DNA of 64,000 bases from Cohnella panacarvi Gsoil 349. Its GTDB lineage: Bacteria > Bacillota > Bacilli > Paenibacillales > Paenibacillaceae. The position numbers and the translations under genes are program-made. Positions 3,347-58,182 of the stretch are shown in pieces (positions within the stretch are counted from its first letter, which is position 1; each line of letters opens with the position of its first letter). The stretch lies in NCBI RefSeq assembly GCF_000515335.1, contig NZ_KI911563.1, positions 4,014,338-4,078,337 of the forward strand, in the 5' to 3' direction. The notes under the pieces are model-generated. The model saw only the letters and a program-made list of their open reading frames with translations. It did not search any database and had not been told where the DNA came from.

Positions 3347-3805
3347 GTGGTGCGGGTGCGGCGAGTTAGGCCCAAGGTTGTCGCAGAGAGCGACAAAGTG
3401 GTGCGGATGCGGCGAGGTAAGCCCAAGATTGTCGCGGAGAGCGACAAAGTGGTGCGGGTGCGGCGAGGTAAGCCCAAGATTGTCGCGGAGAGCGACAAAG
3501 TGGTGCGGATGCGGCGAGGTAAGCCCAAGATTGTCGCGGAGAGCGACAAAGTGGTGCGGATGCGGCGAGGTAAGCCCAAGATTGTCGCGGAGAGCGACAA
3601 AGTGGTGCGGGTGCGACGAGCTAGGCCCAAGATTGTCGCGGAGAGCGACAAAGTGGTGCGGATGCGGCGAGTTAGGCCCAAGATTGTCGCGGAGAGCGAC
3701 AAAGTGGTGCGGATGCGGCGAGGTAAGCCCAAGATTGTCGCGGAGAGCGACAAAGTGGTGCGGGTGCGGCGAGTTAGGCCCAAGATTGTCGCGGAGAGCG
3801 ACAAA
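3347..3805. repeat. Array A: nine tandem 51-bp units with internal palindrome
   Basis: Units start at 3347, 3398, 3449, 3500, 3551, 3602, 3653, 3704 and 3755, exactly 51 bp apart, with a partial tenth start at 3806. Units differ at a few positions (GGTAAGCCC versus GTTAGGCCC, GGATGCGG versus GGGTGCGG). Each contains TTGTCGC-GGAGA-GCGACAA, a perfect 7-bp stem with a 5-nt loop; the first unit has a changed loop. Because 51 is a multiple of three, several frames on both strands stay open through it, but none has a convincing start. I treat it as intergenic. The remaining parts of the 3291-4035 gap hold AT-rich spacer and the upstream region of the next gene. Confidence 0.95.
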
Positions 3806-4035
3806 GTGGCAGTCCAGACAGAGCGACAACAAGATAAACGAATAGAGCATAATAACCTTATGATGCAGTGCAACTTCTTTCTCCAACAATCGCCGCCGAA
3901 GGAATTCAGGTTCAAGTCAAACTTTAATTTCCATATCGTGAAGGCGTTCGCGAAGCAGATTGCCGAGCGGACTTTTTTGCTTTCCATCAAGCCTGTTTGT
4001 GATGTAATATGGAGAGTAATTCAGGAGGGATCGCG

Positions 4036-4527
4036 ATGAACCAACTTAAACTCAGCATCTTGGATCTACTCAAGGAAGACGCCAGATTGTCCGCAGCCAC
4101 TATCGCAACGATGCTGGGCGCGGCGGAAGCCGACGTTACTTCCGCGATCGCAGAGATGGAACAAGAGCACGTGATCGTCAAATACGCGACGGTCGTCAAT
4201 TGGAGCAAAGTCAGCGACGAGACGGTTACCGCGTTGATCGAAGTCGAGTGCACGCCGGAAAGAGGCCGCGGCTTCGAAAGCATCGCGGAGCGCATCTACT
4301 TGTACCCGGAAGTGAAATCGGTGTTCCTGATGTCGGGCGCGTACGATCTGTGCGTCGAGATCGAAGGGAAAAACTTGAAGGAAGTCGCCTCGTTCGTCTC
4401 CAACAAGCTCTCGACGATTGAATCGGTGATTTCGACCAAAACCTTTTTCATCCTTAAAAAATACAAACAAGACGGCATCGTGTTCGAGGAGTTCGAAGAC
4501 GATCATCGGATGCCGGTATCCCCGTAA
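4036..4527 (+). CDS. Lrp/AsnC family transcriptional regulator
   Basis: 163 residues. The N-terminal 60 form an AsnC-type helix-turn-helix (LKLSILDLLKEDARLS) and residues 65-150 match the ligand-binding RAM domain. Start chosen at 4036 because CAGGAGGGATCGCG precedes it at ideal spacing. The next gene, 33 bp downstream, is a class I aminotransferase; the same regulator-aminotransferase pair occurs in Bacillus as yugG-yugH. This suggests autoregulation and control of amino-acid transamination in response to an amino-acid ligand. The effector cannot be read from sequence. Confidence 0.85.
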   Translation: MNQLKLSILDLLKEDARLSAATIATMLGAAEADVTSAIAEMEQEHVIVKYATVVNWSKVSDETVTALIEVECTPERGRGFESIAERIYLYPEVKSVFLMSGAYDLCVEIEGKNLKEVASFVSNKLSTIESVISTKTFFILKKYKQDGIVFEEFEDDHRMPVSP

Positions 4528-4560
4528 ACGGGCAGCCTAAACGAAAAGGAAGTCGTCCCC

Positions 4561-5793
4561 ATGATAAAAAACGAAGAAAAGCCGCAAATGCAGGTTGAAC
4601 GGTCGGCAGCGAGCGGCATGCAGCATCATCTGGCCGCCAGCGCGCGCGCCATTCCTCCGTCGGGCATCCGGCGATTCTTTGATTTGGTCAGCGCGAGCAA
4701 AGACAAGGACATCATCACGCTCGGCGTCGGCGAGCCCGACTTCGTTACGCCTTGGCGGGTTAGGGACGCCGCGGTGTACGCGCTCGAGAAGGGGAAAACG
4801 CAATACACTTCCAACGCGGGCATGCCGGAGCTGCGCGAAGCGATCGCCGGTTATTTGCAAAGCGGATTCAACGTGAAATACGATCCGGCGAACGAAATTC
4901 TCGTGACGGTCGGCGGCAGCGAAGGCATCGACCTAGCGCTGCGGGCGCTGATCGAGCCGGGCGACGAAATTCTGATTCCCGAGCCTTGTTACGTCTCCTA
5001 TTCGCCGATCACGACGCTCGGCGGCGGGGTGCACGTCGGGATCGAGACGTTCGCGGAGGATCAGTTCAAGCTGACGGCGGAAAGCCTGCGAGCGGCGATC
5101 ACGCCTAAATCGAAGGTGCTCATCCTTTGTTATCCGAGCAATCCGACCGGCGCGATCATGACGTACGAGGATTTGCTGCCGATCGCCAAGATCGTGGAGG
5201 AGCACGATCTGATCGTCATCTCCGACGAGATTTACGCGGAGCTCACTTTTACCGGCCAGAAGCATGTCAGCTTCGCCTCGCTGCCGGGAATGAAGGACCG
5301 GACGATACTCGTCAGCGGTTTTTCCAAGGCGTTCGCGATGACGGGCTGGCGGATGGGCTATGCTTGCGGACATCCGGATCTGATCGGGGCGATGCTCCGT
5401 ATCCATCAATACACGATCATGTGCGCTCCGATCATGGGCCAGGTCGCCGCTTTGGAATCGCTCACCAAGGGCGGTCTGGAGGAGAAGGACCGCATGATGG
5501 AGTCGTACAACCAACGCAGGCGTCTCGTCGTGCAAGGCTTCCGGGATATGGGGCTGGAGTGTCACGAGCCGCAAGGCGCCTTCTATGCTTTCCCGTCGAT
5601 CAGATCCACGGGGCTTACGTCCGAGCAATTCGCCGAACGGCTCGTACTCGAAGCGAAGGTGGCGGCCGTTCCGGGCAACGTCTTCGGCAAAGGCGGAGAA
5701 GGGTTCCTGCGCTGCTGCTACGCGACTTCCGTGGCTCAATTGAACGAAGCGCTGGAACGGATTCATGCATTTTTAAGAAAATTGGAATCCTAA
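4561..5793 (+). CDS. Class I/II PLP aminotransferase (YugH/AlaT-like)
   Basis: 410 residues, fold-type I. Visible motifs: the SNAGMPELREA segment near residue 83, CYPSNPTG near 193, SDEIYAEL near 222, and the Schiff-base lysine in SGFSKAFAMTGWRMGY near residue 255. These match the PatA/AlaT/AspC group, which moves amino groups between alanine or aspartate and 2-oxoglutarate. ATG at 4561 lies 10 bp after an AAAGGAAG site. The gene directly follows an Lrp-family regulator and is probably its target. Exact substrate uncertain. Confidence 0.88.
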   Translation: MIKNEEKPQMQVERSAASGMQHHLAASARAIPPSGIRRFFDLVSASKDKDIITLGVGEPDFVTPWRVRDAAVYALEKGKTQYTSNAGMPELREAIAGYLQSGFNVKYDPANEILVTVGGSEGIDLALRALIEPGDEILIPEPCYVSYSPITTLGGGVHVGIETFAEDQFKLTAESLRAAITPKSKVLILCYPSNPTGAIMTYEDLLPIAKIVEEHDLIVISDEIYAELTFTGQKHVSFASLPGMKDRTILVSGFSKAFAMTGWRMGYACGHPDLIGAMLRIHQYTIMCAPIMGQVAALESLTKGGLEEKDRMMESYNQRRRLVVQGFRDMGLECHEPQGAFYAFPSIRSTGLTSEQFAERLVLEAKVAAVPGNVFGKGGEGFLRCCYATSVAQLNEALERIHAFLRKLES

Positions 5794-5887
5794 CGCATTC
5801 GAGCCAACAATGGGTGTTCAAGGGCGAGCTGATCTGCTATACTAAACCATGTTTTGTGTCATCCTGCAGACGAGGGGGAGTAGGAAC

Positions 5888-6079
5888 ATGGAAGCGGCGG
5901 AGCATGACAGTGCGATGCATAAGCAATGGCTGTCGGAAGAGATCGACGAGCTGCGTCAGCGGATGTCCGATACGTTCATGCGCGAGCTGTCCCTTACTGC
6001 GGAACGAGTCATGGAGATCAGTCGCCAGCTTGACGATAAAATCAACGAATATATGAAGCAATCCGCCCGTACATCATAA
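5888..6079 (+). CDS. Spo0E-like aspartyl-phosphate phosphatase
   Basis: 63 residues; ATG at 5888 follows GAGGGGGAGTAGGAAC. The C-terminal half contains EISRQLDDKINEY, matching the S-x-x-LD-x-x-I signature of the Spo0E phosphatases, which form a two-helix hairpin and dephosphorylate Spo0A~P to delay sporulation. Length is typical for the short Spo0E relatives. A rho-independent terminator follows directly, so this is probably a one-gene unit. Which response regulator it acts on is not shown. Confidence 0.75.
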   Translation: MEAAEHDSAMHKQWLSEEIDELRQRMSDTFMRELSLTAERVMEISRQLDDKINEYMKQSARTS

Positions 6080-6086
6080 GGGCCAA

Positions 6087-6119
6087 GGGACTCGGCGAGC
6101 TTTCGCCGGGTCTCTTTTG
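6087..6119 (+). terminator. Rho-independent terminator after Spo0E-like gene
   Basis: GGGAC-T-CGGCGA, loop GCT, TTCGCCG-G-GTCTC, then TTTT: a stem of about 11 pairs with one mismatch, 8 bp after the stop codon. Confidence 0.8.
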
Positions 6120-6179
6120 CAAGCGGGCGATTGTGCTATAGTTAGGCTATCGAGTAACGAACGCGGGGGGTTAACGGGG

Positions 6180-6758
6180 ATGAGAATTTATACGAGAACG
6201 GGCGATGAGGGCAAAACGTCGGTCATCGGAGCGCGGGTGGCGAAGGACGACGCACGCGTGGAAGCTTACGGAACGATCGACGAGCTTAATGCGGCCGTCG
6301 GACAAGCGGCGGCCATCATCGGAAGGGACAACGACGGACATTGGAACGACATGCTCGCGCAGCTAACGGTTATACAGCACGAGCTGTTCGATTGCGGGTC
6401 GGATTTAAGCTATGCGTCGCCGGTACACGAGAAAATGAAAGTGACGGACGAAATGGCTGCCCAATTGGAGCAATGGATCGATCGGTACTCGGATCAAACG
6501 CCGCCTCTCGCGCGGTTCATTCTCCCCGGCGGGAGCGAGCAGGCAGCGGCGCTGCACGTCTGCCGGACCGTCTGCCGCCGCGCGGAGCGAAGAGTTGTCG
6601 CGCTCGCGGCGGTGCAACCGTGCCCGCAGCCGGTCGTCAAGTACGTGAATCGGCTGTCCGATTATTTCTTTGCCGCCGCTCGCGCGGCGAACGCGCTGCT
6701 CGGGACGCAGGACGTCGAGTATGAACGCGGCGCGATCGTATTCAGACGGAGGTCGTAG
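6180..6758 (+). CDS. Cob(I)alamin adenosyltransferase, PduO/MMAB type
   Basis: 192 residues. The N-terminal MRIYTRTGDEGKTS is the conserved ATP-binding loop of PduO-type adenosyltransferases; further on are EAYGTIDELNAAVG near residue 30, the DLSYASP region and the VCRRAERRVVAL helix near residue 132. It transfers the adenosyl group of ATP to cob(I)alamin to give coenzyme B12. ATG at 6180 was chosen over the upstream GTG because the glycine-threonine loop must lie near the N-terminus. It starts a run of four tightly packed genes (6180-9342). Confidence 0.92.
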   Translation: MRIYTRTGDEGKTSVIGARVAKDDARVEAYGTIDELNAAVGQAAAIIGRDNDGHWNDMLAQLTVIQHELFDCGSDLSYASPVHEKMKVTDEMAAQLEQWIDRYSDQTPPLARFILPGGSEQAAALHVCRTVCRRAERRVVALAAVQPCPQPVVKYVNRLSDYFFAAARAANALLGTQDVEYERGAIVFRRRS

Positions 6759-6761
6759 CTA

Positions 6762-7742
6762 GTGTCGGGCGAACAGTCTACGGAGTATTACACCCCGCTC
6801 GTATTCGTCGCTGAAGCCTCGGACGAGGGCCGAAACCTGCGCGATGTGCTGCGCAAGCGGATCGGCATCTCGAGGCGGCTGATGATACGCCTTAAGACGT
6901 CGGAGGAAGGGTTGACCGTCAACGGCGCGAAAGCGATGCCTTACGACAAGGTGTCCGCGGGAGACGTCATCGAACTCCGGATGGAGACGGAGACGTCGGA
7001 CGATATCATGCCGCAGGAGATGGAGATCGATATCGCCTATGAGGACGAGCATATTCTCGTCGTTAATAAACCGGCCGGGGTGATCGTTCATCCGACGACG
7101 GGACGGTATCTGAACACGCTCGCCAACGGGATCGTACACTACTGGCAGACACGAGGCGAACGCGTGCGGTTTCGCCCGGTCAATCGGCTGGACGAGCATA
7201 CGTCCGGCCTTATCATCGTCGCGAAGCACAAGTACGCGCACATGCAGCTCGCCGCGCAGATGACGGAGGACAAGATCGACAAGCGATATCGGGCTTACGC
7301 GTACGGCCGTCCGCCCGAGCCGAAAGGCGAGATCAATAAGCCGATCGGACGTCAGGACGAGGACCCGCATCGGCGCGTCGTGCGCGAGGACGGGGCGCGT
7401 TCCTTGACGTTCTACGAAGTGGCCGAAGCCTACGGAGAATTAGCATGCGCGCTCGACATTCGCCTCGGAACGGGACGCACCCACCAGATTCGCGTTCATA
7501 TGACGTCGATCGGATGTCCTCTTATCGGAGACGGCTATTATACGGTGGAACGATGGAACGATTCGCCGCTGGCGGCGCGGCTGTCGGGGGCGATCGACAG
7601 GCAGGCGCTTCATGCGATTAGCCTTGGTTTCGACCATCCGGTAACCGGCGAGCGATTGCATCTTGCGGCGGCGTTGCCGGACGACTTGCAGCGGCTTGAA
7701 AGGGAGCTGCGCAACATGGGAGAGGAGCACTTACGCACATGA
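6762..7742 (+). CDS. RluA-family RNA pseudouridine synthase
   Basis: 326 residues; GTG start at 6762, 10 bp after GGAGG inside the previous gene's end. Residues 15-85 resemble an S4-like RNA-binding domain (ISRRLMIRLKTSEEGLTVNG). The catalytic motif is NRLDEHTSGL near residue 146, with the nucleophilic aspartate in RLD. LGTGRTHQIRVHM near residue 240 is the second family motif. It isomerises uridine in rRNA or tRNA; the target site is not predictable. The last base pairs overlap the next gene's ATG, implying translational coupling. Confidence 0.9.
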   Translation: MSGEQSTEYYTPLVFVAEASDEGRNLRDVLRKRIGISRRLMIRLKTSEEGLTVNGAKAMPYDKVSAGDVIELRMETETSDDIMPQEMEIDIAYEDEHILVVNKPAGVIVHPTTGRYLNTLANGIVHYWQTRGERVRFRPVNRLDEHTSGLIIVAKHKYAHMQLAAQMTEDKIDKRYRAYAYGRPPEPKGEINKPIGRQDEDPHRRVVREDGARSLTFYEVAEAYGELACALDIRLGTGRTHQIRVHMTSIGCPLIGDGYYTVERWNDSPLAARLSGAIDRQALHAISLGFDHPVTGERLHLAAALPDDLQRLERELRNMGEEHLRT

Positions 7743-8119
7743 CAACTTCTATGGATAAAACCTTGAAAGTATACCATTTACCGGTTTGCAGCACTTGCAA
7801 GCTTGCTAACAAACAGCTGCGGCAAATCGGTTATACGTTGGACGATCAAGATATTCGGGAGCAGCCCCCTACGGTCGATGAGCTGACCGACCTTATCGCG
7901 CTCAGCGGATTGCCGATCGGCAAATGGTTCAATACGTCGGGCGAAGCATACCGCGAGATGGGCTTGAAGGACAAGATGAAGCAGCTTTCCGAATCGGAGA
8001 AGATCAAGCTGCTCGCTTCGAACGGCATGCTGATCAAGCGCCCGGTCGTTAGCGACGGCAAGCGCGTTACGGTCGGCCATCGCGAGCCTGACTTCAGCGC
8101 CGCTTGGGGTGGACGATGA
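7739..8119 (+). CDS. ArsC/Spx-family protein (YusI-like)
   Basis: 126 residues with a thioredoxin-like fold signature: VCSTCKLANKQL near the N-terminus has a CxxC pair, followed by the ArsC-family segment KWFNTSGEAYREMGLKDK near residue 60 and IKRPVV near residue 100. The RPVV loop is where arsenate reductase and Spx relatives carry their basic residues. Its start overlaps the RluA stop (ATGA) and its stop overlaps the next ATG, so it is embedded in a coupled operon. Whether it reduces a substrate or binds RNA polymerase like Spx is undecided; lack of a clear Spx C-terminal RPR signature favours the YusI branch. Confidence 0.78.
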   Translation: MTTSMDKTLKVYHLPVCSTCKLANKQLRQIGYTLDDQDIREQPPTVDELTDLIALSGLPIGKWFNTSGEAYREMGLKDKMKQLSESEKIKLLASNGMLIKRPVVSDGKRVTVGHREPDFSAAWGGR

Positions 8120-9342
8120 CGCGCTTGTCGCTGCGGTCGCAGCGGCTCGATCGGCTCGGATCGGCGATATTCGCCGAAGTGGCGGGCTGGAAGCGCGAAG
8201 CGAGGGAGCGGGGGATCGAGGTGATCAGCCTTGATATCGGGAGTCCGGATCAACCTCCCGCCGAGAACATACGCGAGGCTTTGGCTGCCGCAGCGATGAA
8301 ACCGGACAGCTACAGCTATCCGGGAACGGAGGGGACGTTCGGGTTCCGCCGCAAGGTCGCGGAATGGTTCAAATACCGGTTTAACGTCGAGCTGGACCCG
8401 GATCGCGAGATCGTCTCGTTGATGGGAACTCAGGACGGGCTGGGACACCTGGCGCTCGCGATCACGGACCCGGGCGATGCGGCTTTGCTGCCCGACCCCG
8501 GCTATCCGGTGTACGGAGCAGGACTGGCGGTTGCCGGCGTCGAGGCGATTCCGCTTCCGCTTGACGCGGCGAACGGCTATTTGCCTGATTTCGAAGCCGT
8601 TTCCGAAGCGGTATGGCGGCGCGTGAAGTTCATGATCTTGAACTACCCGAGCAACCCGCTCTCCGTCACCGCCGACTTGGCTTTCTTCGAGAGGGCGGTA
8701 CACGCCGCGCGGAAGCACGGCGTGCTGCTCGTTCACGATAACGCATACAGCGAGATGGCGTTCGAAGGCGCGAAGCCCCCGAGCGTGCTGGAGGTTCCCG
8801 GCGCGTTCGACGTGGCGATCGAGTTCCATTCGTTATCGAAGTCTTTCCATATGGCCGGCACGCGCATCGGCTTTGCCGTAGGCAACCGCGACATCTTGGC
8901 ATCGCTTCGCGCGCTCAAAAATCAAATCGACTTCGGCGTCTTCCTCGCGACGCAAGAAGCGGGAATCGCGGCATTGGAGCAGGATATGACAGCTCCGCGA
9001 CCGGTCGCTGCGTTATACGAGCGGCGCAGGGACGCATTCGTCGGCGCGCTTAGATCGTACGGTTGGAACGTGCCGTCGCCCGCCGCGACGATGTTCCTCT
9101 GGGCGCCGGTTCCGGCAGGCTGGACGTCTCGCAAGTTTTCGCAAGCTTTGCTCGAGTCGACGGGGGTCGCCACGATTCCGGGCAACGCTTTCGGGGAACG
9201 GGGAGAAGGCTACGTGCGGCTCGCGCTCGTCGAGCCGGAGGAACGGCTGCGGGAGGCGGCTCGCAGGGTCGGGGAATTTATGCGGAGCGAAGATGTCAAT
9301 AACTTCTCGCGGCATGCGGTAGAGAAGTCCGGGCTCGAATGA
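8116..9342 (+). CDS. Class I/II aminotransferase (LL-DAP aminotransferase-like)
   Basis: 408 residues; ATG at 8116 overlaps the previous stop by 4 bp. Fold-type I motifs: DIGSPDQPP near residue 38, YSYPGTEG near 68, NYPSNPLS near 176, HDNAYSEM near 207, and the PLP lysine in HSLSKSFHMAGTRIGF near residue 241. The spacing resembles LL-diaminopimelate aminotransferases and related MalY/DapL enzymes, but the substrate is not certain. It is the last gene of the tightly packed 6180-9342 run. Confidence 0.85.
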   Translation: MTRLSLRSQRLDRLGSAIFAEVAGWKREARERGIEVISLDIGSPDQPPAENIREALAAAAMKPDSYSYPGTEGTFGFRRKVAEWFKYRFNVELDPDREIVSLMGTQDGLGHLALAITDPGDAALLPDPGYPVYGAGLAVAGVEAIPLPLDAANGYLPDFEAVSEAVWRRVKFMILNYPSNPLSVTADLAFFERAVHAARKHGVLLVHDNAYSEMAFEGAKPPSVLEVPGAFDVAIEFHSLSKSFHMAGTRIGFAVGNRDILASLRALKNQIDFGVFLATQEAGIAALEQDMTAPRPVAALYERRRDAFVGALRSYGWNVPSPAATMFLWAPVPAGWTSRKFSQALLESTGVATIPGNAFGERGEGYVRLALVEPEERLREAARRVGEFMRSEDVNNFSRHAVEKSGLE

Positions 9343-9396
9343 TAGAATTAACGGTAGATTATCGCTATTTATTTTATCGTATTGGGGCGGAATGGA

Positions 9397-10287
9397 TTGC
9401 AAACATCGAAGGATAGAGTCATGCTCGTCGACGGTATGGCGTTGTTGTTCCGCGGCTACTACGCCAATGCTTACGGCGGTTATATCCGCAAGACGAAAGC
9501 GGGACTTCCGACGAACGCCGTCTACGGCTTCGTGAAATATTTGCTGGACGCTTGCCGCGAGTTCCGGCCGACGCACGTCGTTTGCTGCTGGGACATGGGC
9601 AGCAAGACGCTGCGCACCGACAAGTTCGCGGATTACAAAGGCAATCGTCCGGATGCGCCGCAGGACTTGATTCCGCAGTTCGACCTGGTGAAAGACGTCG
9701 TCAGCGGGTTCGACATTCCGAATATCGGCATGGTCGGCTATGAAGCGGACGACTGCATCGGCACGTTATCCCGTCAGCTCAGTTCGCATATGGACGTGTA
9801 TATTCTGACCGGCGACCATGATATGCTGCAGCTCGTGGACGAGCGAGTGAAAGTCGCCATCATGAAAAAAGGTCCGTCCAACTACGCGGTCTACGATCCG
9901 GAGACGTTGCTCGCGGAGAAGCGGCTGACCGCCCAACAGTTCATCGATCTTAAGGGGCTGATCGGCGACACGTCCGACAACTACCCGGGAGTGCGCGGCA
10001 TCGGCGAGAAGACGGCGACGAAGCTGCTGAACGATTACGCCTCGATCGAAGGCATTCTCGAGAACTTGGCCGAGCTGCCGAAGGGCGTCAGAGCGAAAAT
10101 CGAAGCAGACGTCGAGATGCTCCACCTATGCCGAGAGCTGGCGACGATCATGCTCGATGCGCCGGTCAACTGCACGCCGGAACAGTGCGTATGGCGCCCT
10201 GAGCAAGCGAAGATTGCCGCATTGTTCGAGGAGCTCGAATTCAACAGCCTCGTGAAAGAAGTCGGCAAGTTGATCGCGGTATCGTAA
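9397..10287 (+). CDS. 5'-3' exonuclease (Pol I-type 5' nuclease domain, YpcP/ExoIX-like)
   Basis: 296 residues. MLVDGMALLFRGYYA near the start, FDLVKDVVS, EADDCIGT near 114, TGDHDMLQL near 133 and KGLIGDTSDNYPGVRGIGEKTA near 185 (helix-hairpin-helix) give the metal-binding acidic residues and DNA-binding motif of flap endonucleases. There is no polymerase domain. TTG at 9397 was preferred because GGGG lies 9 bp upstream; a TTG at 9382 is the alternative. It would remove RNA primers or flaps. Its stop codon TAA is followed immediately, without spacer, by array B. Confidence 0.9.
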   Translation: MQTSKDRVMLVDGMALLFRGYYANAYGGYIRKTKAGLPTNAVYGFVKYLLDACREFRPTHVVCCWDMGSKTLRTDKFADYKGNRPDAPQDLIPQFDLVKDVVSGFDIPNIGMVGYEADDCIGTLSRQLSSHMDVYILTGDHDMLQLVDERVKVAIMKKGPSNYAVYDPETLLAEKRLTAQQFIDLKGLIGDTSDNYPGVRGIGEKTATKLLNDYASIEGILENLAELPKGVRAKIEADVEMLHLCRELATIMLDAPVNCTPEQCVWRPEQAKIAALFEELEFNSLVKEVGKLIAVS

Positions 10288-10556
10288 GTGCCTCTAAATG
10301 CGCCGCTGTGGCGGATACTCGAGGAAATAGAGGTAAATGTGCCTCTAAATGCGCCGATGGACCGAGTTTCGAGGAAATAAGATCTCGCGGTGTCACTAAA
10401 TGTGCCGATGGACCGAGTTTCGAAGAAATAAGATCGCGCGGTGTCATTAAATGCACCGATGGACCGAGTTTCAAGGAAATAAGATCGCGTGGTGTCATTA
10501 AATGCGCCGATGGACCGAGTTTCGAAGAAATAAGATCGCGCGGTGTCACTAAATAG
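10288..10556. repeat. Array B: five 51-bp tandem units abutting a stop codon
   Basis: Units begin at 10288, 10339, 10390, 10441 and 10492, exactly 51 bp apart, with a 14-bp partial sixth at 10543. The first base follows the TAA of the exonuclease gene. Common core: TAAATGCGCCGATGGACCGA and GTTTCGAAGAAATAAGATCG. Unit 1 is the most divergent and contains CGCC-GCTGT-GGCG and CCTCTA/TAGAGG inverted arms. Several frames stay open because 51 is a multiple of three; I do not regard them as genes. Confidence 0.93.
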
Positions 10557-10577
10557 AGATGAGGTCTTTGTGCAAAG

Positions 10578-16746: not shown

Positions 16747-16786
16747 AAGGTTAGCTTAACCTACAACTGAATACGAGTTTTGCCAT

Positions 16787-16953
16787 CTTATCAAGAGCAG
16801 GCGGAGGGACTAGCCCGATGAAGCCCGGCAACCGGCGTCACCCATGACGCACGGTGCTAATTCTTGCGGAAACAGCAATGTTTCTGACAGATGAGAAGGG
16901 CGCCGCGTACGTTACCTGTTACACGACCCTTCTTAAGTAAGGGTCGTTTTTAT
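16787..16953 (+). ncRNA. SAM-I riboswitch (S-box) with terminator
   Basis: The aptamer starts CTTATCAAGAG-CAGGCGGAGGGACT, continues AGCCCGATGAAGCCCGGCAACC, and closes with GATGAGAAG pairing back to the 5' strand: all canonical S-box conserved segments. It is followed by an intrinsic terminator ACGACCCTT-CTTAAGT-AAGGGTCGTTTTT (16923-16952). SAM binding should stabilise the terminator and switch off the downstream metA-metI-patB operon. Confidence 0.95.
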
Positions 16954-36362: not shown

Positions 36363-37145
36363 TTGAAGCTGATCGGCAGGACGGCGCTCATTACGGGCAG
36401 CGCCAAAGGATTGGGCCGCAGGACGGCGATCGAGCTATCCGCTCTCGGCTGCGACATCGCCATCAACTACGTCACGAGCCGGAAGGAAGCGGAGCAGCTC
36501 GCGGAGGAGATCCGGTCGATCGGCAGGAGAGCGATCGCGGTCGAAGCCGACATCTCGAAGCCGGACATGGCGGATAAGCTGGTATCCGCGGTAGAGAGCG
36601 AGCTGGGCGGCGTCGACATTCTCATCAATAACGCAGGACCGTTCATCCGGGAAAGGCGCTTGTTCGCGGATTATAAGCCGGAGGAAATCCATTACCTCAT
36701 GAACGGCAACCTGGTGGGTACGATGCTTCTTGATCACCGCGTGCTTCCCGGCATGAGGGCGAGCGGGTGGGGGAGAATCATTCACTTCGGCTTCGGCCAT
36801 GCCGGCGAAGCGCGTTCTTGGCCGCATAGAGCCGTATACGCCGCCGCCAAAGTCGGGCTCGTTTCCTTCACGAAGACGCTCGCCATGGAAGAGGCGGCGA
36901 GCGGGATTACGGTCAATATGATCTGTCCGGGCGACATTCGCGGCAACAATAAGGAGAAGAGCATCGTCGACGTCGCGGGAATGATCGACGAGGAATCTCC
37001 GCGAGGCCGACCGGGGACCGGGGAAGACGTGGCGAGAATGATCGCTTTCCTGTGCCTGCCGGAGTCGGATTTCATTACCGGCAATACGGTCGACGTATCC
37101 GGGGGACTCGATCCGATCCGCACCGATCTGATCAAACCTCGATAA
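36363..37145 (+). CDS. Short-chain dehydrogenase/reductase (FabG-like)
   Basis: 260 residues, TTG start 21 bp after the HEPN gene. Cofactor loop TGSAKGLGRRTA near residue 11, NNAGPF near 88, catalytic YAAAKVGLVSF near 159 and the C-terminal GNTVDVSGG near 238. A classical NAD(P)H-dependent oxidoreductase; substrate unknown. Oddity: its last six codons form the first unit of a 16-bp tandem repeat that continues past the stop codon. Confidence 0.85.
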   Translation: MKLIGRTALITGSAKGLGRRTAIELSALGCDIAINYVTSRKEAEQLAEEIRSIGRRAIAVEADISKPDMADKLVSAVESELGGVDILINNAGPFIRERRLFADYKPEEIHYLMNGNLVGTMLLDHRVLPGMRASGWGRIIHFGFGHAGEARSWPHRAVYAAAKVGLVSFTKTLAMEEAASGITVNMICPGDIRGNNKEKSIVDVAGMIDEESPRGRPGTGEDVARMIAFLCLPESDFITGNTVDVSGGLDPIRTDLIKPR

Positions 37146-37220
37146 GATCAAATCTCGATCTGAGCAAACCTCGATCTGAGCAAACCTCGATCTGAGCAAA
37201 CCTCGATCTGAGCAAACCAA
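37125..37220. repeat. Array C: six 16-bp tandem units spanning a stop codon
   Basis: Units of 16 bp start at 37125, 37141, 37157, 37173, 37189 and 37205. Consensus GATCTGAGCAAACCTC. The first unit is coding sequence of the SDR gene; its stop TAA at 37143-37145 is inside the second unit, which differs in a few bases. The array therefore seems to have grown outward from the gene's 3' end. Confidence 0.9.
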
Positions 37221-41359: not shown

Positions 41360-41815
41360 CTCGGAACTAACTGCATGAAGGGCAGGTATTTCAATCGATG
41401 GCGTACTCCTTGACCTGTAAACGGTACGAAGTGCAGTTAATTGGGTAAAAAATGCGAGATCCGATGTTTCGGCGATAATGTAATGTAGATCATGCAGTTA
41501 TTCAGAAGAAAATGACGATAGTGTGATGACGAACTGTACTCCGTGCAGTTGAGGCGGTAATAGGTTGTAAGTTCAGCAGCCGAACGCGGTTCCGCTAGTG
41601 CGTGCCAACGCGCGCGGTTCGCTCTATAGCGGAACACAGTTCCGCAATTGAGCCTCAACACCCGCACATACGCACAATAACGGAACCCACATCCGCTATT
41701 TCGGTTTCAAACACCACTATCCCCTCAAAAATCCCAGAATAACGCACCCCAGATCCGCTATCGCGCACCGGCACACGATTTTCCCCCGAATAACGCACTC
41801 CGGATCCGCTATTCC
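41360..41815. repeat. Array D: phased degenerate palindromes, two sub-blocks
   Basis: Sub-block D1 has right arms TGCAGTT (or GGCAGGT) at 41381, 41432, 41493 and 41544, paired with AACTG-like left arms. Sub-block D2 has right arms TCCGCT/TCCGCA at 41591, 41641, 41692, 41754 and 41805, and left arms ATAGCGG/ATAACGN at 41626, 41677, 41739 and 41790. Steps are 51, 61, 51 in D1 and 50, 51, 62, 51 in D2. Between palindromes the sequence is not conserved. This fills most of the 742-bp gap between the Fe-S carrier and YheC/D genes; no ORF in it has gene-like features. Confidence 0.8.
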
Positions 41816-46191: not shown

Positions 46192-46378
46192 AATAACAGC
46201 TATTCAATAGTTATTTTCCCTTAAAATGAGAGGATGGAGGAAATAACAACATATAGAAGGTTATTTGGTCCCGAATAAGGTCATACATTGTTTCGGCTCT
46301 AAAATAACTGCATATTTTTGTTATTTTGCGAAATTGTCACATTAGAGGATGTAATAACTGCATATTGTTGTTATTTTG
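46192..46378. repeat. Array E: four AATAAC/GTTATT palindromes
   Basis: Left arms AATAAC at 46192, 46242, 46303 and 46353 (steps 50, 61, 50), each paired with GTTATT after 11-12 bases. Units 3 and 4 share TGCATATT in the loop. The sequence between palindromes is unrelated. This accounts for most of the gap between the ndh operon and aspA. Confidence 0.8.
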
Positions 46379-49245: not shown

Positions 49246-49281
49246 ACTGCGGCCCTGAAGCTGCGATCGGGGGCTCATCGA

Positions 49282-49683: not shown

Positions 49684-49710
49684 ACCGATTTCCATTAGAT
49701 GAACCATTTG

Positions 49711-49736: not shown

Positions 49737-49756
49737 CTGCCCGGATGCTAGGATTA

Positions 49757-49765
49757 TGCTACAAT
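49757..49765 (+). promoter_or_regulatory. Extended -10 promoter of dnaB-dnaI
   Basis: TGC-TACAAT (49757-49765) is an extended -10 motif about 40 bp before the dnaB ATG; no clear -35. Confidence 0.5.
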
Positions 49766-49806
49766 AAAGAAACCATTTTCGATAGGAAAGAGTTGTCGAT
49801 TCCGCT

Positions 49807-51297: not shown

Positions 51298-51336
51298 TCG
51301 ATTCATTCATTACTGGCCGAACAGGAGGACTGGAAC

Positions 51337-52284
51337 ATGGAATCTTTGGGTGAGGCTCTTCGCCGAGTGCCGCTATTGGATGGCGCGATGCATCCGGATC
51401 GGCTGGCCGAGCAAGTGTTGAACGATCCGCTCGTTCTGAAGCTTCGCGAGCGTTATCCGGACGTGGACGACGCGACGCTGCGGCTTAATCTGAATCGCCT
51501 GTACCAGATGTCGGCGGAATATCGCAACTGCAAATATTGTCCCGGCCTCGCGGACTGTCCGAACGATATGCAGGGCCACTATACGAGCATTACTTGCGCG
51601 ACGTTGAACGGCCGCTGGCAAGTCGTCGATCAGAAGACGCCGTGCTCGAAATGGACCGCCTATACGCAGCAGGAACAAATCCGCAAGCGGATTACGAGCT
51701 TTTTCGTGGACGAGACCCTATTCGGAGCGGAATACGATCCTTCGGAAATGCTGGATCTTGACGAGAGCAGGGAACCGGCCGTCATCGATCTGATCAGCTA
51801 CATCGAGAAGACCCGCCAAGAAGGGCTGCAGAAGAAAGGCTTGTATTTGCAAGGCAACTTCGGCACCGGCAAAACCTATTTGGCGGGTTTTATGCTAAAG
51901 GAGCTTGCCAAGGAAGGCTTCTCCGGCGTTATCGTCTACATGCCGGAGTTCGTGGAAGACGCCAAAGCGCTCATGCTGGAGCCGCAGCAGCTTAAAGAGA
52001 CGATCTCGCTGATGAAGGAAGCGGATCTGCTCGTCTTCGACGATATCGGCGCGGAAAATTTAAGCCCTTGGGTACGCGACCATGTGCTGGGGGCGATTCT
52101 GAACTACCGGATGAACCGCAAACCTACCTTTTACACGTCGAACCACGACTTGGACGCGCTGGAGAAGCACTTCAGCTTTACGCATAAAGAGGGCGAGGAA
52201 CTGCACAAAGGACAACGTCTGATGGACCGCGTCAGGCCGTTCGTCGACGTCGTGCACGTGCGGGGGCGCAACCAGCGCGGATAA
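51337..52284 (+). CDS. dnaI: Helicase loader DnaI
   Basis: 315 residues. The N-terminal zinc-binding part has NCKYCPGLADCPN near residue 66 with further cysteines at about 88 and 107. The AAA+ domain shows Walker A GNFGTGKTYLA near residue 171 and Walker B LLVFDDIGAE near 231, and an arginine-finger-type RLMDRVRP near 293. It loads the DnaC helicase at origins and stalled forks. The downstream hairpin at 52327-52348 serves as its terminator. Confidence 0.93.
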   Translation: MESLGEALRRVPLLDGAMHPDRLAEQVLNDPLVLKLRERYPDVDDATLRLNLNRLYQMSAEYRNCKYCPGLADCPNDMQGHYTSITCATLNGRWQVVDQKTPCSKWTAYTQQEQIRKRITSFFVDETLFGAEYDPSEMLDLDESREPAVIDLISYIEKTRQEGLQKKGLYLQGNFGTGKTYLAGFMLKELAKEGFSGVIVYMPEFVEDAKALMLEPQQLKETISLMKEADLLVFDDIGAENLSPWVRDHVLGAILNYRMNRKPTFYTSNHDLDALEKHFSFTHKEGEELHKGQRLMDRVRPFVDVVHVRGRNQRG

Positions 52285-52323
52285 GCGGCATCGACATTTA
52301 TCATTTATTTTTATAAGTCCGTA

Positions 52324-52353
52324 TTGACAGGGAGCTAGGCTCCCTGTTATTAT
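52324..52353 (+). promoter_or_regulatory. Sulfate-transporter promoter overlapping the dnaI terminator
   Basis: TTGACA (52324-52329), 18-bp spacer, TATTAT (52348-52353). The spacer is the hairpin ACAGGGAGC-TAG-GCTCCCTGT (52327-52347), followed by TTATTATTTT, which would also terminate dnaB-dnaI transcripts. Two direct repeats GTAGGAATTAT at 52376-52386 and 52394-52404 lie downstream; their GGAATT core resembles CymR-type half sites. Confidence 0.7.
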
Positions 52354-52477
52354 TTTCCCAATACCAAGTAAGTGGGTAGGAATTATAAAGTTTGTAGGAA
52401 TTATCGGGTAACCGACCGAGGCGACCGGACGAACCGGAGCGATAACGGAAAAAGAAAAAACATTGGGGTGCATAATC

Positions 52478-53593
52478 ATGACCGTATTGAAAAAATTCCA
52501 ATTTATCCTTATCGCCGCATTAATCCTGACCTTGCTATCCGCTTGCGGTTCCAAGAACGATAACAAAGAACCGGCGGCTTCTCCGTCGGGAGCGAGCCCA
52601 AGCGCGACAGCGAGCGAGTCTAACGGCGAGTCTTCGGCGGAGCCGAGCAAAGTTCCGGATCCGATCGAGTTGCTGAACGTCTCTTACGATCCGACCCGCG
52701 AGCTGTACGAAGCGTTCAATGCAAGCTTCGCCGAATATTGGAAGCAAACGACCGGAGGCAAAATCACGATCAAGCAATCCCACGGCGGTTCAGGCAAGCA
52801 AGGCCGCGCGGTAATCGACGGTTTGGAGGCGGACGTCGTCACGCTCGCGCTCGGCTACGATATCGACGCGATCGCGGACGCGGGCTTGCTGAAAGCCGAT
52901 TGGCAGAAGTCCTACGAGCAGAACAGCACGCCGTACACGTCGACGATCGTGTTCCTCGTACGCAAAGGAAATCCGAAAGGCATTAAAGACTGGAACGATC
53001 TGATCAAGGACGGCGTGGGCGTCATTACGCCGAATCCGAAGACGTCCGGCGGCGCCCGTTGGAACTACCTCGCGGCATGGGGCTACGCCCAGAAGACGCT
53101 CGGTTACGACGAAGCGCAAACGCTCGATTTTCTGAAGAAGCTGTTCAAGAACGTGCCGGTGCTCGATACGGGCGCCCGCGGTTCCACGACGACGTTCGTC
53201 GAGAAAGGAATCGGCGACGTGTTGCTCGCTTGGGAGAACGAAGCTTACTTGGCGCTTAAGGAGTACGGCGACGATTACGAGATCGTCACTCCGTCCCTCA
53301 GCATTCTGGCCGAACCTCCCGTAGCGATCGTCGACAAGAACGTAGACAAGAAGGGGACCCGCGAAGCGGCGGACGCTTACCTGAAGTACTTATACACCGA
53401 GCAAGGGCAAGAGATCGCGGCGCAGAACTTCTATCGTCCGCGTCTGCAATCGGTCGCCGACAAATTCAAAGACCAGTTCGGGGAATTAAGCTTGCTGACG
53501 ATCGATCAGGATTTCGGCGGCTGGAAAGAAGCGCAAACGAAGCATTTTGCCGACGGCGGCACGTTCGATCAAATTTATACGCCGGGATCCTAA
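52478..53593 (+). CDS. Sulfate/thiosulfate-binding lipoprotein of ABC transporter
   Basis: 371 residues. The lipoprotein signal peptide ends in LLSAC near residue 23, followed by a Ser/Pro/Glu-rich linker. The mature part has the sulfate-binding protein pattern: [16 protein letters not shown] near 68, [16 protein letters not shown] near 97 and [15 protein letters not shown] near 190. It captures sulfate or thiosulfate outside the cell. ATG at 52478 chosen by GGGGTG upstream. It heads the cysP-T-W-yezD operon. Confidence 0.9.
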
Positions 53594-53621
53594 TGGTGCA
53601 ACCGGTAAGAGGGGTTAATTC

Positions 53622-54470
53622 ATGATGCGTCAACGCAAAGCGGACCGGGTGCTCCCCGGGCTTAATCTCTCGCTTGGATTCACGGTCGCTTACGTTAGCT
53701 TGATCGTCCTTATTCCGTTAGCGGCTCTGGTGATCAAATCGTTCGATCTTTCCATGTCGGAGTGGTGGGATGCCGTAACGGACGCGCGGGTGGTCGCTTC
53801 GTATAAGCTGAGCTTGCTTACCTCTTTTTACGCGGCGGTAGTGAATCTCGTATTCGGTCTTTTGCTCGCATGGGTGCTCGTTCGGTACCGTTTTCCGGGC
53901 AAAAGAATCATCGACGGTCTCATCGACCTTCCTTTCGCGCTGCCTACGGCGGTAGCGGGCATTGCCCTTACGACGATCTACGCGCCGAAGGGATGGATCG
54001 GATCGCTGCTCGAACCGCTCGGAATCAAGGTAGCCTACACGCCGCTCGGCATTACGATCGCGCTTATATTCATCGGGTTGCCGTTCGTCGTTCGAACGGT
54101 GCAGCCGGTGCTGCAGGATATGGAATCCGATATGGAGGAAGCAGCCGTGTTGCTAGGCGCATACCGCTCACGCACGTTCCGCAAGGTCATCTTGCCGGAG
54201 CTGCTGCCTCCGCTGTTAACCGGATTCGCGCTGGCTTTCGCCCGCGGAATCGGGGAATACGGCTCGGTCGTGTTCATCTCCGGTAACATGCCGATGAAAA
54301 CCGAAATCGCGCCGCTCCTGATTATCACGAAGCTGGAGCAGTATCAATACAGTCAAGCGGCCGCCGTGGCGGTCGGACTGCTCCTCGTCTCGTTCGTTTT
54401 GTTGCTCTTCATTAACCTTCTGCAAAGATGGTCTAACCGCCGCCTGCGCAGCGTAACGAAAGGAGCGTGA
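53622..54470 (+). CDS. cysT: Sulfate ABC transporter permease CysT
   Basis: 282 residues, six transmembrane helices. The ABC permease coupling loop is [23 protein letters not shown] near residue 172, with the conserved EAA and gly motif; [14 protein letters not shown] near 207 is typical of the CysT/CysW pair. Works with the binding protein and CysW. The ATP-binding subunit is not encoded in this operon within the window. Confidence 0.92.
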
Positions 54471-54474
54471 GCGT

Positions 54475-55347
54475 ATGGCAGGAATCGTCACGAATCCGCG
54501 TTCTGGCAAGAACGCCGATACGCGCCCCCATCTAACGGAATCCGGATTGATCCGGTGGGTGCTGATCGGAGCCGCGCTGCTCTTCGTAGGTTTGATCGTC
54601 GTGCTGCCGATGATCACGGTCATCTCCGAGTCGCTGCGCAAAGGATGGGACGCCTATCTCGAAGCGCTGAAGGATCCGGATGCAATGGCCGCCCTCAGGC
54701 TGACGCTCATTACGGCAGCCATCGCCGTACCGCTCAATACGATATTCGGCGTTGCCGCCGCGTGGGCGATCACGAAGTTCAAGTTCCGCGGCAAAAACCT
54801 GCTTATTACGCTGATCGATCTTCCGTTCGCGGTATCGCCGATCGTCAGCGGGCTCATCTACGTGCTGCTGTTCGGGGCGCAAGGATTCCTTGGGCCGTGG
54901 TTGGACAGTCGCGATATCGATATTATTTTCGCGACGCCGGGCATCGTTCTCGCGACGATGTTCGTCACGTTTCCCTTCGTGGCGAGGGAGCTTATCCCGA
55001 TCATGGAGGCGCAAGGCGTGCAGGACGAGGAAGCCGCGGTAAGCCTCGGCGCCAGAGGGTGGCGAATCTTCTTCAAGGTGACGCTGCCGAACATCAAGTG
55101 GGGGCTGCTATACGGCATGATTCTGTGCAACGCGCGGGCGATGGGCGAATTCGGCGCCGTGTCGGTCGTATCCGGTCACATACGGGGCGAGACGAACACG
55201 TTGCCGCTTCATATCGAGATTCTGTACAACGAGTATCAATTCAGCGCTTCGTTCGCCGTTGCTTCGTTGTTGATGCTGCTTGCTATCGTCACGTTGATTA
55301 TTAAGTCCATACTGGAAAGCAGAATGAGCAAGGAACACGAGAGTTAG
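54475..55347 (+). CDS. cysW: Sulfate ABC transporter permease CysW
   Basis: 290 residues, six transmembrane helices. The coupling motif is EEAAVSLGARGWRIFFKVTLPNI near residue 185; AMGEFGAVSVVSGHIRG near 222 is the CysW-type loop. Second permease subunit of the sulfate transporter. It starts 4 bp after the cysT stop. Confidence 0.92.
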   Translation: MAGIVTNPRSGKNADTRPHLTESGLIRWVLIGAALLFVGLIVVLPMITVISESLRKGWDAYLEALKDPDAMAALRLTLITAAIAVPLNTIFGVAAAWAITKFKFRGKNLLITLIDLPFAVSPIVSGLIYVLLFGAQGFLGPWLDSRDIDIIFATPGIVLATMFVTFPFVARELIPIMEAQGVQDEEAAVSLGARGWRIFFKVTLPNIKWGLLYGMILCNARAMGEFGAVSVVSGHIRGETNTLPLHIEILYNEYQFSASFAVASLLMLLAIVTLIIKSILESRMSKEHES

Positions 55348-55376
55348 AAGGATAAAGGACTAGTGGAGGGATTAGG

Positions 55377-55586
55377 ATGGCGAAACCGGTAGAAGTAGAC
55401 GATCGTTGGCTCGCTCGAATCGCCGAGCAAGTGAACGGGCTCGAGTACGGCGAGGTGAACATCGTCGTGCACGACGGCAGAATCGTGCAGATCGAGCGCA
55501 AGGAACGCCGCCGCTACGACGACGGTGCGTCGTCCGTGCAGCGAACGGTGCATTCGGTAGACAGAAAAGAGCGCAAGCAAGGCTAG
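55377..55586 (+). CDS. YezD-like (DUF2292) small protein
   Basis: 69 residues. LEYGEVNIVVHDGRIVQIERKERRR is the core of the YezD/DUF2292 family, small proteins found next to sulfur-assimilation genes; role unknown. GGAGGGATTAGG precedes the ATG. Followed by a GC-rich purine microsatellite (55590-55635). Confidence 0.8.
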   Translation: MAKPVEVDDRWLARIAEQVNGLEYGEVNIVVHDGRIVQIERKERRRYDDGASSVQRTVHSVDRKERKQG

Positions 55587-55589
55587 GGC

Positions 55590-55635
55590 AGGATAGGGCA
55601 GGGGCAGGGCAGAGCAGAGCAAGGCAGAGCAGGGC
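55590..55635. repeat. Short GGGCA/GAGCA microsatellite
   Basis: Degenerate copies of GGGCA and GAGCA, 5 bp each, run directly after the yezD stop. About nine units. Its reverse strand gives spurious Leu/Ala-rich reading frames. Confidence 0.75.
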
Positions 55636-55651
55636 GATAAAGCCGACAAAA

Positions 55652-55697
55652 AAACGCATTCCGGACTCCCGAGGGAGAGTGGAATGCGTTTTTGTCG
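55652..55697. terminator. Terminator between yezD and yqzM
   Basis: AAAAACGCATTCC and GGAATGCGTTTTT: a 13-bp stem with an 18-base loop containing CTCCC/GGGAG, A/T-rich on both sides, so bidirectional. Confidence 0.9.
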
Positions 55698-55707
55698 TTC
55701 GTTCGGC

Positions 55708-55854
55708 TTACGAAATGATAAATTTAATGACAACCGCGGCGGTAAACACCACGAACATGAAGCCGAACATGGCGAAAAAGCCCATTGCCGTATCTTGCAA
55801 ATCGTCGCGCGGTTCTTCGTTAATATGTTGACGCGGATCTCTTACGTTCTCCAT
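55708..55854 (-). CDS. YqzM-like single-pass membrane protein (48 aa)
   Basis: ATG at 55854 with CAGGAGGCTTACC on the minus strand. A charged N-terminal half (NVRDPRQHINEEPRDDLQD) is followed by one hydrophobic helix (AMGFFAMFGFMFVVFTAAVVIKF). This resembles YqzM of Bacillus as I remember it, a small membrane protein of unknown function. The reading frame continues far upstream but the ribosome site marks this start. Confidence 0.65.
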   Translation of the reverse strand: MENVRDPRQHINEEPRDDLQDTAMGFFAMFGFMFVVFTAAVVIKFIIS

Positions 55855-56031
55855 GGTAAGCCTCCTGAGACATTCGATACTGTTAGTATACCCAACTTCG
55901 CTTTTTGTTGTAAAGATAGCTCGTGCGCAGGGCGGTGACAAGTTTGCGACAACGCCGCCGGAGTCGAACCCGCAAAGGACGCGGCTGTGATACAATATAG
56001 GACGAATACCGAAGGAATCGAGGTGTCTCGC

Positions 56032-57972
56032 ATGGATCGTTCGACGCCGCAAGCCGGAAGCCGCGAACAGGCGATGGTAGGTATCCGTCATAAGCTTGCG
56101 CTGCTCCCGGACCAGCCGGGCTGCTACCTGATGAAAAACGGCGAAGGCCGCATTATATACGTCGGCAAGGCGAAAGTGCTGAAGAATCGCGTGCGTTCCT
56201 ATTTCATCGGGAGCCATGACGGCAAGACGCAGAAGCTTGTCTCGGAAATCCGGGACTTCGAATATATCGTAACGGCCAGCAACACGGAATCGCTCATTCT
56301 CGAGTGCAATTTGATCAAAGAGCACATGCCGAGATATAACGTCCTGCTGAAGGACGATAAGTCGTTCCCGTATCTGAAAATCACCCACGAAAAGCATCCG
56401 AAGCTCGAGGTAACGCGGAGGGTCGTGAAGGACAAAGGGAAATATTTCGGTCCGTACCCGAACGCGTTCGCCGCCCAGCAGACGAAGAAGCTGCTCGACC
56501 GGCTGTATCCGCTTCGCAAATGCAACGTGCTGCCGGACAAAGTGTGCCTCTATTATCATCTCGGCCAATGCGTCGCTCCTTGCGAGCATCCGGTCGAGCA
56601 ATCGCAGTACGACGAGATGATCGGCGAGATTACGCGGTTTCTGAACGGCGGTCATACCGACATCAAGCGCGAGTTGAAGCGCAAAATGGAGGAAGCCGCC
56701 GAAGAGCTTCAGTTCGAGCGGGCCCGCGAGTACCGCGATCAAATTACGGCGATCGACGCGCTGATGGAGAAGCAGACGATCAATATCAACGACGCGATGG
56801 ATCGCGACGTCTTCGGCTATGCCGTCGACAAAGGCTGGATGTGCGTGCAAATTCTGTACATGCGCCAAGGCAAAATGAATCAGCGGCACATGTCCGTATT
56901 TCCGTATTACGGCGAGCCTTATGAGGATTTTCTTAGCTATGTTACCCAATACTACAGCGACAATCCCGCGCTTCCCCGCGAGATGCTGCTGCCGCTGCCT
57001 CCGGAAGAAGCGGCGGAAGATGGCGAGGCCGAAGGGGCGCCTAAGGAAAGCGAGATCGCGCTGACGAGAAAGCTTGCACAGGAAGAAGGCGAATCTTCAG
57101 CCGCCGATTCGGCCGCGGACGAGGGAGGGGAGATCGGCGATTCCCTGCGTCGCTGGCTGAAGATCAAGGTCGCGTTCCCTCGCAGAGGTACGAAGAAGCA
57201 GCTCGTCGCGATGGCGTGCGACAACTCGCGCGTGGCGCTGGAGGAGAAGTTCAAGCTGATCGAGCGGGACGAGACGCGCACCGTGAAGGCGGCGGACGGC
57301 TTGGCCGAGCTGCTCGGCATCTCCAGCGCGCACCGGATCGAGGCGTTCGATAACTCGAACATTCAAGGCGCGTCGCCGGTATCCGCGATGGTCGTGTTCA
57401 CGGACGGCAAGCCGGACAAGAAAGAGTACCGCAAGTACAACGTGCGTTCCGTGGAAGGGCCGGACGACTATCAGACGATGCGCGAAGTCGTCCGCAGACG
57501 GTACGAGCGGGTGCTGAAGGAAGGGCTGCCGCTGCCGGACTTGATTGTCATCGACGGCGGCCGAACGCATATCGCCGCGGTCATGGACGTGCTGACGAAC
57601 GAGCTGGGCCTCGACGTGCCGGTGTGCGGATTGGCCAAGGACGCCAAGCACCGCACGGCGGAGCTGCTCGTCGGCGACCCGCCGGAGCCCGTGCCGATGG
57701 CGCGCGACAGCCAGGAGTTCTATCTGCTGACGCGCATCCAAGACGAGGTGCATCGCTTCGCGATTACGTTCCACCGCGAGAAGCGGGCGAAGTCGATGGT
57801 CGCCTCCAAGCTCGACGCCATCCCCGGCATCGGGGAGAAGCGCCGCAAGCAGCTGCTGAAGCATTTCGGGTCGCTTAAGGCGATCAAGGAAGCGGAAGTC
57901 GAAGACTTCAAGGCGGTATCGATCGGCGAGGCGCTGGCGGAACGCATCCTCGAGGCGTTGAACGCGGAGTAG
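56032..57972 (+). CDS. uvrC: Excinuclease ABC subunit C
   Basis: 646 residues from ATG at 56032 (GAGGTG upstream). The N-terminal GIY-YIG nuclease shows [24 protein letters not shown] near residue 28; the UVR motif is near residue 215 ([13 protein letters not shown]). The RNase H-like nuclease has [14 protein letters not shown] near 440 and [11 protein letters not shown] near 510. Two C-terminal HhH motifs end near [17 protein letters not shown]. It makes both cuts around damaged nucleotides with UvrA and UvrB. A Glu/Ala-rich insertion lies between about 325 and 370. Array F starts 6 bp after the stop. Confidence 0.95.
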
Positions 57973-57977
57973 GGGAC

Positions 57978-58182
57978 GGAATCGCACGAAATAGCGCGGT
58001 GACGTCGAGTTACCGAGGCATAAGTGGCGGGATCGCACGAAATAACGCGGAGACGCCGAGTTACCGAGGCATAAGTGACGGGATCGCACGAAATAGCGCG
58101 GTGACGTCGAGTTACCGATAATAAATTGGCTCAACGCCATGCAATAGCGCGATAATATCGCGTTACTGCACGGCGTTGAGCC
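57978..58182. repeat. Array F: three 51-bp units plus an in-phase long hairpin
   Basis: Unit starts 57978, 58029 and 58080 are 51 bp apart; the palindrome core TAGCGC/TAACGC begins at 57992, 58043, 58094 and again at 58145, still in 51-bp phase although the fourth unit's flanks are different. Core of a unit: TAAC-G-CGG, AGACG, CCG-A-GTTA. The fourth copy lies inside the giant hairpin. Confidence 0.9.

Follow-up and report, generated by a model that had tools for sequence, protein, structure and literature searches.

The 64,000-nucleotide stretch analysed here (the window, G000:C1:4014338-4078337 of the 4.77-Mb genome of Cohnella panacarvi) carries five repeat arrays, called A, B, D, E and F. 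They belong to a wider set of arrays in which distance is what is conserved. Boxes lie at quantised spacings of 48-52 and 60-62 bp, the spacing is kept while the spacers between E boxes are near saturation, arrays prefer gene ends and, in this genome, E elements are oriented along the replication fork. A first-pass annotation of this DNA had described arrays of common step and unrelated sequence; this observation proved real and wider than first reported, and the interpretation attached to it is partly supported. We put at even chances that the arrays are helically phased sites for a putative dimeric DNA-binding protein, similar in habit to repetitive extragenic palindromes (REPs) and the bacterial interspersed mosaic elements (BIMEs) that contain them. 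The features of the window are the following.

3341..3809, + strand: array A, nine 51-bp units with palindrome TTGTCGC-N5-GCGACAA (Tandem Repeats Finder; palindrome shuffles; relatives in L115 and L119)
10288..10554, + strand: array B, 51-bp units, no clear palindrome (Tandem Repeats Finder; dispersed family in the same genome)
41575..41813, + strand: right part of array D, 25 bp per box, with box starts at 41575 (weak), 41625, 41676, 41738 and 41789, spacing 50-51-62-51
46192..46215, + strand: E box P1
46242..46265, + strand: E box P2, 50 bp from P1
46303..46325, + strand: E box P3, 60.5 bp from P2
46353..46375, + strand: E box P4, 50 bp from P3
57975..58118, + strand: array F, which lies downstream of uvrC and is built of 51-bp units, with box starts at 57990, 58041 and 58092
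58128..58182, + strand: terminator-like hairpin whose tip is the fourth F box (58143-58167), in the 51-bp phase (minimum free energy -41.4 kcal/mol, z -9.5)

Tandem Repeats Finder lists A, B and F at the 51-bp step first claimed for them (9.2, 4.1 and 2.8 copies, respectively), and the nine palindromes of A follow each other at 51 bp in 8/8 steps. D and E, absent from its list, are four-box elements with centre spacings of 51-62-51 and 50-60.5-50. Their outer steps of 50-51 bp agree with the first description, but the central step of 61-62 bp, found in both, had been mentioned merely as '61 bp'. Boxes were defined by the motif AATARC-N11-13-GYTATT, weaker neighbours being accepted in D, E and F; positions 41360-41570, the left part of D, have only a by-eye reading. 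The first-pass annotation had also assigned a palindrome to each step, less clearly in B. Tested on consensus units, the palindrome is clear in A (matched by 2% of 100 shuffles) and unclear in B (93%), but that of F is not clear either (63%). The fourth F palindrome does stay in phase (51-51-51), at the tip of the terminator-like hairpin. As for the claim of unrelated sequences, it stands for A against B (p = 0.43) and A against F (p = 0.90), with p = 0.05 for B against F, but AATARC/GYTATT-like ends are common to the D, E and F boxes. No Rfam match at gathering score was found at the arrays. We rejected a CRISPR reading of A and F by inspection, as the whole 51-bp unit repeats, 'spacer' included. 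A protein-coding repeat in A was also rejected: the open reading frame (ORF) has a coding score of 24 vs 201 and 117 in the flanking genes and, by inspection, differences between units alter residues.

E-like elements, which we call quartets, were sought in 1.26 Mb of the C. panacarvi genome (the window and 60 stretches of 20 kb, of which 20 were picked for E sites). This yielded 32 quartets, D among them. The element is about 185 bp long with boxes of ~24 bp, P1 and P2 being AATAACAACAAATCGATAGTTATT and P3 and P4 AATAACTGCAAATGGTTGTTATT; by their outer half-sites P1P2 and P3P4 appear inverted, though the boxes are near-symmetric. Information per base is 1.43-1.54 bits in boxes, 0.28-0.37 in spacers and 0.09-0.12 in flanks, where no sequence is shared. 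In 29 of the 32 quartets (D and two tandem duplicates excluded), spacers are 31-35% identical, compared to 26-27% for flanks, yet the modal length of the three spacers is kept in 26/29, 27/29 and 24/29 cases. Because spacing is mostly kept while spacers are near saturation, we take the distance to be under selection, as the first-pass annotation had suggested.

The chain search that delimits quartets restricts the spacing, so the spacing was also counted pairwise, where no such restriction applies. At most one mismatch being allowed, 160 sites form 161 pairs within 125 bp: 69 at 48-52, 24 at 60-62, 18 at 100-102, 49 at 108-113 and one at 84. All but the last (160/161) lie at 48-52, at 60-62 or at sums of these, the sums accounting for 67. 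Neither of the control motifs (52 and 14 sites) gave any pair, and with up to two mismatches the peaks persist among 266 pairs. Exact-motif sites number 46 in the genome vs 5 for the control; three of the 46 exceed 24 bp and are not E-like. Extra 50-bp units occur inside the quartet clusters L113, L115 and L119. A fifteen-box cluster at L113:8685-9523 contains tandemly duplicated whole quartets (50-50-50-60.5-50-82.5-...).

The outer half-sites are conserved base by base. Double compensating changes are not in excess, either in the E boxes of C. panacarvi (15 vs 11.6 expected by shuffling, and 8 vs 9.2) or in the boxes of a second species, G035 (2 vs 2.0). Half-sites conserved without compensating excess fit a protein dimer better than a folded stem, and the RNA-folding system proposed at first is therefore disfavoured.

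The periodicity was then examined independently of any motif, using 26-bp self-matches (at least 19/26) inside intergenic regions delimited by a simple purpose-made gene finder; array A lies outside these tests since an ORF call runs through it. In the C. panacarvi sample, 39 of 71 flagged regions (454 regions in all) have their best lag at 49-52. The figures are 9/25 flagged for G035 (151 regions), 4/10 for G015 (142) and 1/12 for G037, from another family of the same order (133), some G035 and G037 stretches being centred on known sites, which biases their counts upward. Shuffling left 3, 1, 1 and 0 flagged regions, respectively, none with best lag 49-52. A 22-bp test on the pooled Cohnella/Paenibacillus regions (1629 regions, every set except G037; counts are per lag, so that one region may score at several) gave 103 at 50-52, 24 at 60-62 and 18 at 39-41, with sparse lags between and beyond (4 at 44-46, 5 at 55-57, 8 at 65-67) and 0 at 50-52 in shuffles. 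In 200 kb of Escherichia coli K-12, 0/81 regions scored at 50-52; this control detects direct repeats only and is blind to REPs in alternating orientation. Spacing between inverted repeats, taken without motif (at least 7/8 outer pairs), is led by 51 or 52 in all four sets, with counts inflated by tandem copies. The first-pass annotation had asked whether shuffled DNA gives the same period and whether further arrays exist in the genome. In 192 intergenic regions from the window and the first 20 position-chosen stretches, 8 of 15 self-repeat regions have their lag at 49-51, and shuffles flag none, so the observation withstands this attempt at refutation.

The lag peaks suggest, in our interpretation, steps near 4, 5 and 6 turns of B-DNA, which further supports selection on periodicity. 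A second array set at 39-41 bp, with more than one sequence family, was seen in C. panacarvi (L094, L095, L097, L108, L110 and L117). In G037, a set spaced 40-71-40 follows another geometry, with steps close to 4 and 7 turns.

Arrays with lag 49-52 occur in 18/52 convergent, 18/289 codirectional and 3/113 divergent regions of the C. panacarvi sample (convergent vs rest, p about 7e-9). Their orientation was considered relative to replication: the dnaA gene maps to 2.887 Mb, close to which both GC skew and gene direction switch, as they do again between 0.32 and 0.40 Mb. Polarity was assigned by a fixed rule to the 46 exact sites minus the three longer ones, that is 43 sites at 33 loci. On the right replichore 19/19 loci are forward and on the left 12/14 backward (Fisher p 2.6e-7), so that 31/33 follow the fork; readings by eye and by fixed rule agree. 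Within the examined stretches 26/28 quartets are fork-aligned (one of unclear direction excluded), including 12/12 convergent ones, and transcription alone is therefore not the cause of the polarity. For B and F together, 11/13 copies agree (p = 0.022), or 9/11 without the window copies (p = 0.065), which is suggestive only.

The geometry extends to other loci and families. Comparison was made with 80 named uvrC loci (10 from Cohnella and 70 mostly from Paenibacillus) and with stretches from further genomes of the genus and order; UvrC of C. panacarvi shares 83% identity with the Cohnella luojiensis protein. Directly downstream of uvrC, lag 51/52 or its double leads in 7/11 Cohnella-group loci (the window, L001, L002, L004 weakly, L008, L009 and L010); of the remaining four, one is truncated by its contig and one has just a 51-bp gap. 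Among the 70 others, L066, L067 and L075 show the lag and L071 has it as second best. These arrays are unrelated in sequence, with 2/91 pairs among 14 uvrC-side units similar at p<0.01 (0.9 expected). By eye, a terminator-like hairpin precedes the array at 7/8 uvrC loci inspected. At L008:12443-12500 the last uvrC-side box merges with a terminator-like hairpin, as in F (by eye). The 51-bp geometry reaches further than the E quartets, which are not a general feature, since the uvrC loci of named Cohnella contain few AATARC boxes (10 sites, 0 pairs).

The first description needs a correction in that arrays A, B, E and F each belong to a dispersed family; for D, no relative by DNA similarity was found in the stretches examined. 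Families of the C. panacarvi genome include TTGTCGC (A, L115, L119), AACGTTG (L098, L112, L114, L118), F with its relative L104, and E. For the B family, six places give ten additional alignments (68-84% identity), 10/10 without net length change over 1786 aligned bases, again in line with selection on periodicity; the alignments overlap partly and the aligner penalises gaps, so these do not amount to ten independent facts. G035 carries quartets spaced 51-62-51 with a different box, AATAACGGCC...GGCCGTTATT, and further palindrome families at 51-52 bp.

What we infer from these data is that a protein dimer binds the boxes, that they serve DNA topology or chromosome organisation, and how the arrays expanded. 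The boxes, imperfect palindromes of 23-26 bp, would sit on one face of the helix, 5 turns (50-52), 6 turns (60-62) or sometimes 4 turns (39-41) apart; whole-turn steps suggest that contact is made from a single side. A basic form would be the quartet, in which a wider gap separates two pairs of boxes. The homogenised tandem arrays A, B and F could derive from one 50/51-bp unit that slippage, or unequal exchange between similar boxes, has multiplied. With lineage or family, boxes would drift or be replaced while the spacing stays, because a protein complex would have to contact all of them from the same side. This complex may be gyrase, some nucleoid protein or a lineage protein, gyrase being one candidate because it binds BIME-2 arrays (PMC2817692). 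More tentatively, and below even chances, there could be a chromosome-organising system across Cohnella/Paenibacillus, in which a putative complex reads boxes spaced by 5 and 6 turns between gene ends, with fork direction preferred in at least one species and the box code left free to vary among families and species.

A number of observations weigh against reading the arrays as phased protein sites. The box-binding protein is putative, and helical phasing is deduced from the spacing alone. Box sequences vary among the families of one genome, which would demand several proteins or one reading structure, and a palindrome matched by at most 5% of shuffles is found in 11/31 consensus units of period 50-52. 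At two mismatches the reversed control motif yields 66 pairs, 12 of them at 50; in relatives, one mismatch is enough for it to produce isolated pairs, with 51, 62 and 102 among their distances. Three of the five further matches of the F family differ from the query length, by 1, 1 and 2 bases, and G035 has exceptional single steps of 70 and 49. Facing half-sites reach at least twice the control in 14/37 genus genomes (C. panacarvi included), with 23 below. G037 has 2/133 regions at 50-52, and at C1:43096-43271 its 25-bp AATARCGTA...TACGYTATT boxes stand at 40-71-40; the motif run on 60 relatives that gave this spacing covered sites of 25-33 bp and so missed 24-bp boxes, and only the G037 spacing was used from it. 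G035 showed no fork polarity (right, 2 plus/3 minus loci; left, 3 plus/1 minus) in 12 matches, spread over nine loci, that have no more than two mismatches each (11 three-mismatch matches excluded). Polarity is for this reason a feature of the C. panacarvi genome, not yet of the system, and we rejected it as a general rule. Finally, a strict terminator precedes 15/37 facing quartet sides, near the background of 89/282 (reversed control 3/282).

Among other explanations, the quartets could be selfish non-autonomous mobile repeats that disperse as whole elements, perhaps by way of single-stranded DNA on the lagging strand, and then decay, so that the geometry is that of a founder without host function. 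Single-strand transposons show a fork-related orientation bias, and the strong bias of C. panacarvi, the dispersed copies without common flanks and the tandem duplication of whole quartets in L113 would all be accounted for. We nevertheless hold this possibility to be rather unlikely. Decay alone would not give spacers that are near saturated but mostly length-constant, the uvrC-site arrays are unrelated in sequence among species, and the cluster list has none of the two-box clusters expected from a gene-split version. Mobilisation by the Y1 tyrosine transposase RAYT (PF01797) was rejected, with 0 matches in the C. panacarvi genome; there are likewise 0 in G015, 3 in G035, and a match in 12/37 genus genomes. 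A role in RNA, as 3′ untranslated-region hairpins that terminate or stabilise transcripts, would agree with the preference for gene 3′ ends, the location of the fourth F box within a hairpin and the good RNA folding of some families (-13.9 and -15.3 kcal/mol). It is improbable, given that the folding of E boxes is weak (-0.7 and -3.6 kcal/mol), that covariation does not go beyond chance, that helical-turn spacing has no reason in RNA, and that uvrC-side arrays mostly follow the hairpin. The near-background terminator count does not decide this question.

Two explanations remain. A fixed-length copying or ruler enzyme laying ~51 bp per round, also proposed in the first-pass annotation, would produce the same period in unrelated sequences and arrays of up to 19 copies. 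Copying would, however, duplicate spacers, and quartet spacers are not copies of one another; the 60-62 step and the apparent P1P2/P3P4 dyad are left unexplained, and for the homogenised arrays simple tandem expansion of a single 50/51-bp unit suffices. Fixed-length copying is not supported as the origin of the spacing. We give it a low probability, slightly under that of an RNA element. That all are ordinary slippage repeats, sharing their period by chance or ascertainment, is the least credible: A, B and F do resemble normal homogenised tandem repeats, but 0 shuffled regions and 0/81 E. coli regions score at 50-52, and the position-chosen sample has the same peak.

Two other kinds of element lie in the window: riboswitches matched by Rfam at 16785-16897 (SAM) and 60173-60351 (c-di-AMP), and a 16-bp tandem array at 37124-37218 (5.9 copies, mostly convergent intergenic), whose period is unlike that of the other arrays.

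Intergenic DNA here holds a strong geometric signal that similarity searches miss because distance is what is conserved. If a protein reads the spacing, bacteria would have in these arrays an equivalent of length-conserved satellite DNA, and the function of REP/BIME-like clusters, a long-standing question, would become directly testable. The fork-aligned orientation offers a second handle. Among the matches listed in the open-access literature, no description of such arrays in Paenibacillaceae was found.

Eukaryotic satellite DNA conserves its period while sequence turns over, with local homogenisation. The present arrays share conserved unit length, sequence turnover and local homogenisation, but are bacterial, with units of 50-60 bp, box-like conservation and no nucleosome. 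FtsK-orienting polar sequences (KOPS) and SpoIIIE recognition sequences (SRS) are oriented along the replichore, and the ram sites of RacA are inverted repeats dispersed on the chromosome. E quartets resemble the former by replichore orientation and the latter as dispersed inverted-repeat sites; they differ from both as ~185-bp four-box elements, with a polarity not seen in the second species.

BIMEs contain REPs at regular spacing, are bound by gyrase and IHF, and preserve their palindromes through complementary changes (PMC2817692); some REP dimers are reported to have spacers of similar length and different sequence (PMC3733652). Measured REP/BIME spacings in E. coli (n = 13) cover a similar size range but are 38, 44-45, 50-54 and 70-72, whereas the arrays here are held at 50-52 and 60-62. 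Instead of alternating orientation they show a two-plus-two arrangement, their box sequence varies by family and species, and the GTAG/CGTC end tag is absent from the E box consensus (by inspection, for E boxes only). We do not file the arrays as REPs because this tag and the Y1 transposase are missing and E. coli spacings also fall at 38 and 44-45. REP/BIME (E. coli BIME-1 and BIME-2; GTAG and CGTC superfamilies) is still the closest known kind: like them, the arrays are short extragenic palindromes in many copies, clustered and growing in tandem, and their intergenic boxes of 23-26 bp fall within the 20-40 bp that define extragenic high-copy palindromes.

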